Origin: Collinsella sp. An2
Lineage (GTDB): Bacteria > Actinomycetota > Coriobacteriia > Coriobacteriales > Coriobacteriaceae
Reading direction: 5' to 3'
NCBI RefSeq assembly: GCF_002160065.1
Contig: NZ_NFJW01000012.1
Location: 1 to 54,247, forward strand
DNA: 54,247 bases
Shown in pieces: positions 25,481 through 54,247 of the stretch. A model generated the notes under the pieces. It was not told where the DNA came from and did not search any database. It saw only the letters and a list, made by a program, of their open reading frames with translations. Each line of letters opens with the position of its first letter. Position 1 is the first letter of the stretch. The position numbers were made by a program, and so were the translations under genes.

Positions 25481-25740
25481 GTTTGAGATGGTTCCTTTCT
25501 CGTATTCGATCTATAACGCGCGGATATACCGCAAACACATGCCATGGAATTGTTCGACGAGGATCGAGGGAGCAGGTAGGTCCATACGCCGAACACACAG
25601 ATTTAAGTATTGTATACCGACGGCAACACCGCCATGCCCCCAGAGGGCGATTCCACCGATTGAGCGTGATTGGATGGAGGGGCAACGTATAGTCAGCCGA
25701 ATGTAGAGTGTCGATATGCCGCCCAGCGGAACCGGGAATT

Positions 25741-25890
25741 GCGGCAAATCACACGCTCGGATCCTATAGTGTGGCAATCCACACGCTCAGATTCTAAAGT
25801 GCGGCAAATCACACGCTCAGACCCCTGTAGAGGCACCCTGAGCGTGTGGATTGCCACAATTGAGAGGGCAAGCGTGCGAAATGCTACAAA
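25741..25890. repeat. Cluster of 30-bp-period repeats, three direct and two inverted
   Basis: Three head-to-tail units of 30 nt start at 25741, 25771 and 25801. The conserved part is GYGGCAAWYCACACGCTCRG and the last 9-10 nt vary. A fourth copy is inverted: 25838-25858 is the exact reverse complement of 25770-25790 (21 bp). A fifth, degenerate inverted copy lies at about 25869-25888, again about 30 nt on. Unit 2 can form a small hairpin (GTGTGG-CAAT-CCACAC). Variable parts are far shorter than CRISPR spacers. Function unknown. Confidence 0.8.
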
Positions 25891-53321: not shown

Positions 53322-54125
<804 letters not shown>

Positions 54126-54148
54126 CTACGTTTGATTTGCAAGTTCAT

Positions 54149-54204
54149 CGAAACGCTTCCAGGACTCAGCGGGACATGTCCCGCTGAGTCCTGGAAGCGT
54201 TTCG
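54149..54204. repeat. Perfect 56-bp palindrome
   Basis: The arms 54149-54176 and 54177-54204 are exact reverse complements (28 bp each, no spacer). The arms begin CGAAACGCTTCCAGG and meet at GGGACATGTCCC. The arm ends hold AAACG/CGTTT, so it could act as a bidirectional terminator for the pyr side and an unseen gene to the right, but neither strand has a clear T run after it. A mobile palindromic element is the other option. Confidence 0.9.
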
Positions 54205-54247
54205 CGCTAGCCTCCCGGACGGGGGCCGGATCGGCCGGCCCGCGAAG
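54205..54247. other. Very GC-rich tail at window end
   Basis: The last 43 bp are strongly GC-rich, unlike the AT-rich pyr promoter side, and hold a small GGCCG-GAT-CGGCC hairpin. No gene can be called; it may be the edge of the next feature. Confidence 0.4.

Follow-up and report, generated by a model that had tools for sequence, protein, structure and literature searches.

The perfect 56-bp palindrome upstream of the pyr operon of Collinsella sp. An2 almost certainly belongs to the left end of an insertion sequence. Taken as a whole, it is probably best explained as a subterminal left-end palindrome of an IS30-family element, whose arms would be additional transposase sites, a reading drawn from sequence comparison. 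The window (the whole stretch of DNA analysed, 54,247 bp) was the whole of contig C4, which ended inside a repeat, 43 bp past the palindrome. The features found there are listed in Table 1.

Table 1. Features at the palindrome-bearing end of the window
Feature	Position	Strand	Remarks
13-bp target-site duplication CCAAAAACGCTAC, left copy	54117..54129	none	right copy starts contig C30
Left 118 bp of IS30-family insertion sequence	54130..54247	+	remainder outside window
Left terminal inverted repeat (IRL) GTTTGATTTGCAAGTTCATCGAAACGC	54130..54156	+	aligns with right end GGTTGATTTTCAACCTCAGCGAAACGC
IRL inner motif TCATCGAAAC	54145-54154	+	
Perfect 56-bp palindrome	54149..54204	none	centre 54176/54177
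Internal transposase-site-like motif TCAGCGGGAC, left dyad half	54166..54175	+	21 bp inward of IRL motif
Internal transposase-site-like motif, right dyad half, mirror of TCAGCGGGAC	54178..54187	-	
Second, G+C-rich hairpin GGGCCGG-ATCGG-CCGGCCC	54223..54241	+	fold; position in relatives

A repeat search confirmed the geometry given in a preliminary description of this DNA: the arms (54149-54176 and 54177-54204) were complementary at 28/28 nt with a spacer of 0 nt. Over the whole window this was by far the longest perfect palindrome lacking a spacer, and the chance of a 28-of-28 arm match is about 4^-28 per position. On the minus strand a pyr promoter could be read (TTGACA at 54091-54086, 16 bp, TAGAAT), whose -35 was indeed 58 bp from the start of the palindrome; the pyr genes point away from the palindrome. 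Elsewhere in the window, at 25739-25889, there was a cluster of imperfect inverted TGTGGCAATCCACACGCTCAG-like copies, 73-75% complementary.

The genome comprised 46 contigs (2.54 Mb), and all 92 contig ends were compared, with contigs C32-C33 and C35-C41 consisting of N. A genome-wide search with the arm, as the preliminary description had proposed, gave 10 occurrences, amounting to five full palindromes at unrelated loci. These five perfect copies were at ends of contigs C4, C10, C11, C43 and C45, each within 45 bp of the end. They had in common a block of 19 bp, the 56 bp and a further 41-44 bp, and the flanks beyond it were unrelated, indicating that the assembly was broken in a repeat. Five other contig ends carried GGTTGATTTTCAACCTCAGCGAAACGCTT..., aligning with the palindrome-side tip GTTTGATTTGCAAGTTCATCGAAACGCTT. 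By their unique flanks the 10 contig ends could be paired as five insertions, each between direct repeats of 13 bp (CCAAAAACGCTAC, GTCGTCTCAGCGC, ACTTCTTGAACGC and GGCAACCGTCTTT) or 14 bp (GAAACCACGCTGAG); CCAAAAACGCTAC, for example, was common to the C4 end and the C30 start, which adjoined opposite element ends. Terminal inverted repeats were found at both element ends (GTTTGATTTGCAAGTTCATCGAAACGC and GGTTGATTTTCAACCTCAGCGAAACGC), the latter being present at five other contig ends. The paired ends and direct repeats indicated that the element was an insertion sequence, with the palindrome at positions 20-75 of its left end. Its full length, judged from relatives, is expected to be about 1.64 kb. 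Most other contig ends of this genome also formed groups, with 100-130 bp in common, indicating the presence of several multicopy mobile elements.

The preliminary description had allowed for an assembly artefact. This was ruled out by the five different flanks and by unrelated assemblies (long contigs of genome G047 among them), in which a homologous palindrome occupied the same place in homologous elements; a fold-back of the assembly was excluded by the same agreement of independent flanks and independent genomes. The edge of an rRNA operon was also considered for the repeat and rejected, as the sole 5S match was inside C13 with other surroundings and the ends bore target duplications.

The palindrome does not belong to the pyr operon, whose site is one of five insertions. 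It arrived with the insertion between 54129 and 54130, refuting a pyr-specific role, and the other four copies were at loci unrelated to pyr. At the pyr leader of two genomes of the same genus, neither palindrome nor insertion was found and the leader itself was present. Absent from pyr in these two genomes and lying at five unrelated loci in its own, the palindrome was rejected as a pyr attenuator or operator. Among the options first offered, a mobile palindromic repeat came closest: the mobility held, the free-standing nature gave way to a subterminal part of an insertion sequence. A protein-binding site is also probable, putatively for the transposase of the element and not for a pyr regulator.

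Related ends were present in 10/67 genomes of the taxonomic family (query genome counted). Full-length relatives encoded a transposase of ~425 aa with an N-terminal HTH_38; three of them scored 96-109 bits against NCBIfam NF033563 'IS30 family transposase' (cut-off 80) and also matched HTH_38, and L157, a second family member of the query genome, scored 606 bits against a profile of those three. Read from these relatives, the transposase of the window element, which is probably encoded on short contigs of the assembly, is predicted to be of the IS30 DDE type. Scanning GTDB genomes yielded 36 loci, almost all of them Coriobacteriia by title, and a relative was present in 68/398 genomes of the class Coriobacteriia. 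A 13-bp target duplication with 0 mismatches was found at 29/29 relative loci with both ends located, a figure in which one element can be counted at several sites and which comes from a search favouring low-mismatch solutions. The 13-bp duplication was also read directly, including in the query genome (14 bp in one case). Short duplications of 2-3 bp, as in IS30 itself, where the length is 2 bp (PMC9333248), were not seen. A search of the accessible literature, ISfinder excluded, brought up nothing relevant on IS30-family elements with a subterminal palindrome or with duplications of 13 bp.

Several relatives had unusual structures. In Collinsella sp. 4_8_47FAA the repeat at the left tip of L144 (L110 on the reverse strand) was that of the right end (GGTTGATTTTCAATCTCAACGCAACAG), and the palindrome after it was the usual left-end one; this is a converted, hybrid end, reminiscent of the sequence conversion reported for IS30. 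L124 and L161, ~1635 bp apart, formed a direct tandem with 14 bp (GGTGCGTGGAAAGG) from right tip to left tip, about the length of a target duplication, an arrangement that, as sequence, is compatible with copy-out-paste-in through IR-IR junctions. Four elements of 1093-1367 bp (L148, L151, L152 and L156), with intact ends and 13-bp duplications, are internal deletion derivatives and probably non-autonomous. The transposase copies of L181 at 1464 and 3255 had identical 200-bp upstream flanks, 1791 bp apart, and are a tandem duplication taking in host sequence.

Nearly every transposase gene of this Coriobacteriia clade of IS30-family elements was preceded by a dyad, perfect or imperfect, between the left terminal repeat and the gene. 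Perfect dyads were found in Collinsella ihumii (58 bp, GCGAGACGCCTCCAGGACTCAGCGAAACA then its mirror), in Collinsella 4_8_47FAA/G047 (42 bp, ...GGACTCAGCGCAACG then its mirror) and in L157 (G000:C12:13961-15208, minus strand; 58 bp, GGCTACGCGTTCCAGGACCCAGCGCAACG then its mirror), which is a diverged clade member. Sequence changes between the palindromes of the clade affected both arms. The dyad pattern was lacking in the more distant IS30-like elements of the class.

The arms resembled the terminal repeats. Positions 16-25 of the terminal repeat bear the motif [CT]CAnnnnnAC, and the palindrome core consists of two mirrored copies of it around a 2-bp centre. The left arm motif agreed with the IRL motif of its own element at 8.38/10 positions, compared with 1.76-3.69 for windows shifted by 1-8 bp. 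Over the five variable positions, 3.57/5 agreed, versus 2.38 with shuffled IR partners, and 0/20,000 shuffles were as high, a count that is inflated by kinship and is not a probability, the tree holding 2-3 independent contrasts per position. Examples of IR/arm pairs are TCAGCGCAAC / CCAGCGCAAC, TCATCCGAAC / TCATCCGCAC and TGAGCGAGAC / TCAGCGAAAC. In the imperfect palindromes of L173, L174 and L125 the motif was still present in both arms. At the right end, one further copy in direct orientation was found 54-63 from the tip in 14/16 distinct right ends.

The distance from the IRL motif to the first arm motif was 21 bp in 18 elements, 31 bp in seven, 41 bp in three and 20 bp in one (n=29 distinct); three irregular dyads missed by the pattern were measured by hand (31, 32 and 41). 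Distances of 21, 31 and 41 bp correspond to two, three and four turns of the helix. In a tree of the transposases the 21-bp class was one clade and the 41-bp class another, and only ~3 changes are needed to account for the spacing classes, two by exactly 10 bp and a third by 1 bp. Within a class, spacing stayed constant despite long divergence, and this is as telling as the 10-bp steps. The IR match, the spacing steps and the dyad symmetry suggest that the palindrome is quite probably a mirrored pair of putative transposase sites.

The IS30 transposase binds its terminal repeats. In the mechanism proposed here, an IS30-family insertion sequence landed upstream of the pyr operon, bringing the palindrome with it. 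Each arm carries a copy of the terminal-repeat recognition motif, mirrored and placed whole helical turns inward of the terminal motif, and a transposase dimer would bind the palindrome, facing the same side of the helix as the subunit that occupies the left repeat. Such binding could mark the left end as unlike the right end when the transposition complex assembles, could repress the transposase gene, which starts 40-150 bp downstream, or could do both; a role of the putative sites in complex assembly is a tentative proposal, and one in autoregulation a slightly more tentative one. The outer, sequence-variable parts of the arms were probably made or kept perfect by template-switch correction of a quasipalindrome, and selection for a hairpin possibly helps to keep them so.

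The strongest rival explanation, though an unlikely one, is an RNA hairpin, in which read-through RNA from a neighbouring promoter would fold at the palindrome and stop or dampen transposase expression. As RNA, the left end of the window element (119 nt) was predicted to fold very stably (-78.8 kcal/mol), and the palindrome was always upstream of the transposase gene. Watson-Crick pairs occupied 482/580 cells at positions 1-20 from the centre, dropping to 9/29 at position 21. Positions 11-20 were mostly paired though little of their sequence was conserved, with complementary changes in both arms, indicating that a binding motif alone is insufficient as an explanation; a hairpin possibly makes some contribution to the pairing. 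A second hairpin was found in relatives just before the transposase start codon, touching the ribosome-binding site (L105:582-626), with a stem of ~19 bp in C. ihumii; a hairpin there could shield translation of the transposase. However, neither the 21/31/41 spacing nor arms that copy the IR motif of the same element are predicted by an RNA hairpin, and several elements tolerate imperfect pairing. The non-standard pairs comprised 22 sense-strand G.U and 38 A.C, indicating no mRNA-strand wobble preference. The absence of a T tract from either side of the palindrome, already remarked in the preliminary description, was confirmed and does not fit an intrinsic terminator (G+C-rich stem plus U tract); an ordinary terminator, one of the options first raised, is made unlikely by this together with the IR match, the stepwise spacing and the lack of G-U bias. 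A promoter under the dyad was sought by eye, and only weak TAnnnT-like hexamers, not conserved, were seen.

A mutational by-product is quite unlikely as the full account: template switching would perfect a quasipalindrome of adjacent inverted motifs, leaving long arms without a function of their own. The correction of quasipalindromes by template switching is documented as a maker and keeper of perfect hairpin arms (PMC8794818; also PMC7202029), and arms perfect over >20 bp were confined to a handful of elements (L157, L187, L105 and the window element), whose arm sequences are private. This process would account for the symmetry and would leave the conserved position, the IR match and the stepwise spacing unexplained; it can thus cover the outer arms only. 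It is very improbable that the palindrome is a built-in target site drawing further copies into tandem elements: IS30 prefers near-palindromic and IR targets (PMC9333248) and the clade has tandem copies (L124/L161 with the 14-bp spacer, and L127), but the observed tandem junctions were at element ends and not within the palindrome, and the resolved 13-bp duplications were not obviously palindromic.

With the paired-site reading preferred, the clade was compared with known systems. It resembles IS30 of Escherichia coli, the type element of the family, in the IS30-family transposase with HTH_38 of its relatives, in terminal inverted repeats of about 27 bp, and in tandem copies and converted ends comparable to IS30 dimers and IR-targeting (PMC9333248). 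It differs from IS30 in duplications of 13 bp instead of 2 bp and in its extra internal motif copies, of which the left end has a mirrored two and the right end one. The ends of phage Mu (attL/attR) and Tn7 each carry several asymmetric transposase sites. The clade likewise has multiple transposase-site-like motifs per end, unlike in number and arrangement between left and right; here, however, they belong to a single-gene insertion sequence, the left pair can form a perfect palindrome, and the sites are putative. IS10, IS50 and IS200 have outer-end hairpins against read-through. ISPpu9 is reported to have a structured 5' leader (PMC8450116). What these four elements share with the clade is a strong inverted repeat close to the left end and ahead of the transposase gene; in contrast, the clade arms match the terminal-repeat motif, are spaced by helical turns and lack sense-strand wobble. 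Palindromic interspersed repeats such as REP are likewise scattered through genomes, whereas this palindrome was found only within complete element ends with target duplications.

As first framed, a palindrome linked to pyr, the finding dissolves; what is left is a variant within the known IS30 family. A broader and more tentative reading is that the clade has redesigned the ends of the family, with asymmetric internal sites that are helix-phased and co-evolve with the terminal repeats, a 13-bp stagger, and one complex that both tells the two ends apart and governs the transposase gene; if true, the left end in this design would have a mirrored pair of sites and the right end one copy in direct orientation. 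A promoter-adjacent palindrome at a contig end may, as a warning, be the edge of a mobile element. An isolated oddity has become a testable rule: left-end palindromes look like paired transposase sites, whose sequence would follow the terminal repeats and whose distance would follow the helix. If true, the rule would make the left-right asymmetry and autoregulation of a one-gene element directly testable, and it would explain how palindromes that look unstable persist in many copies.
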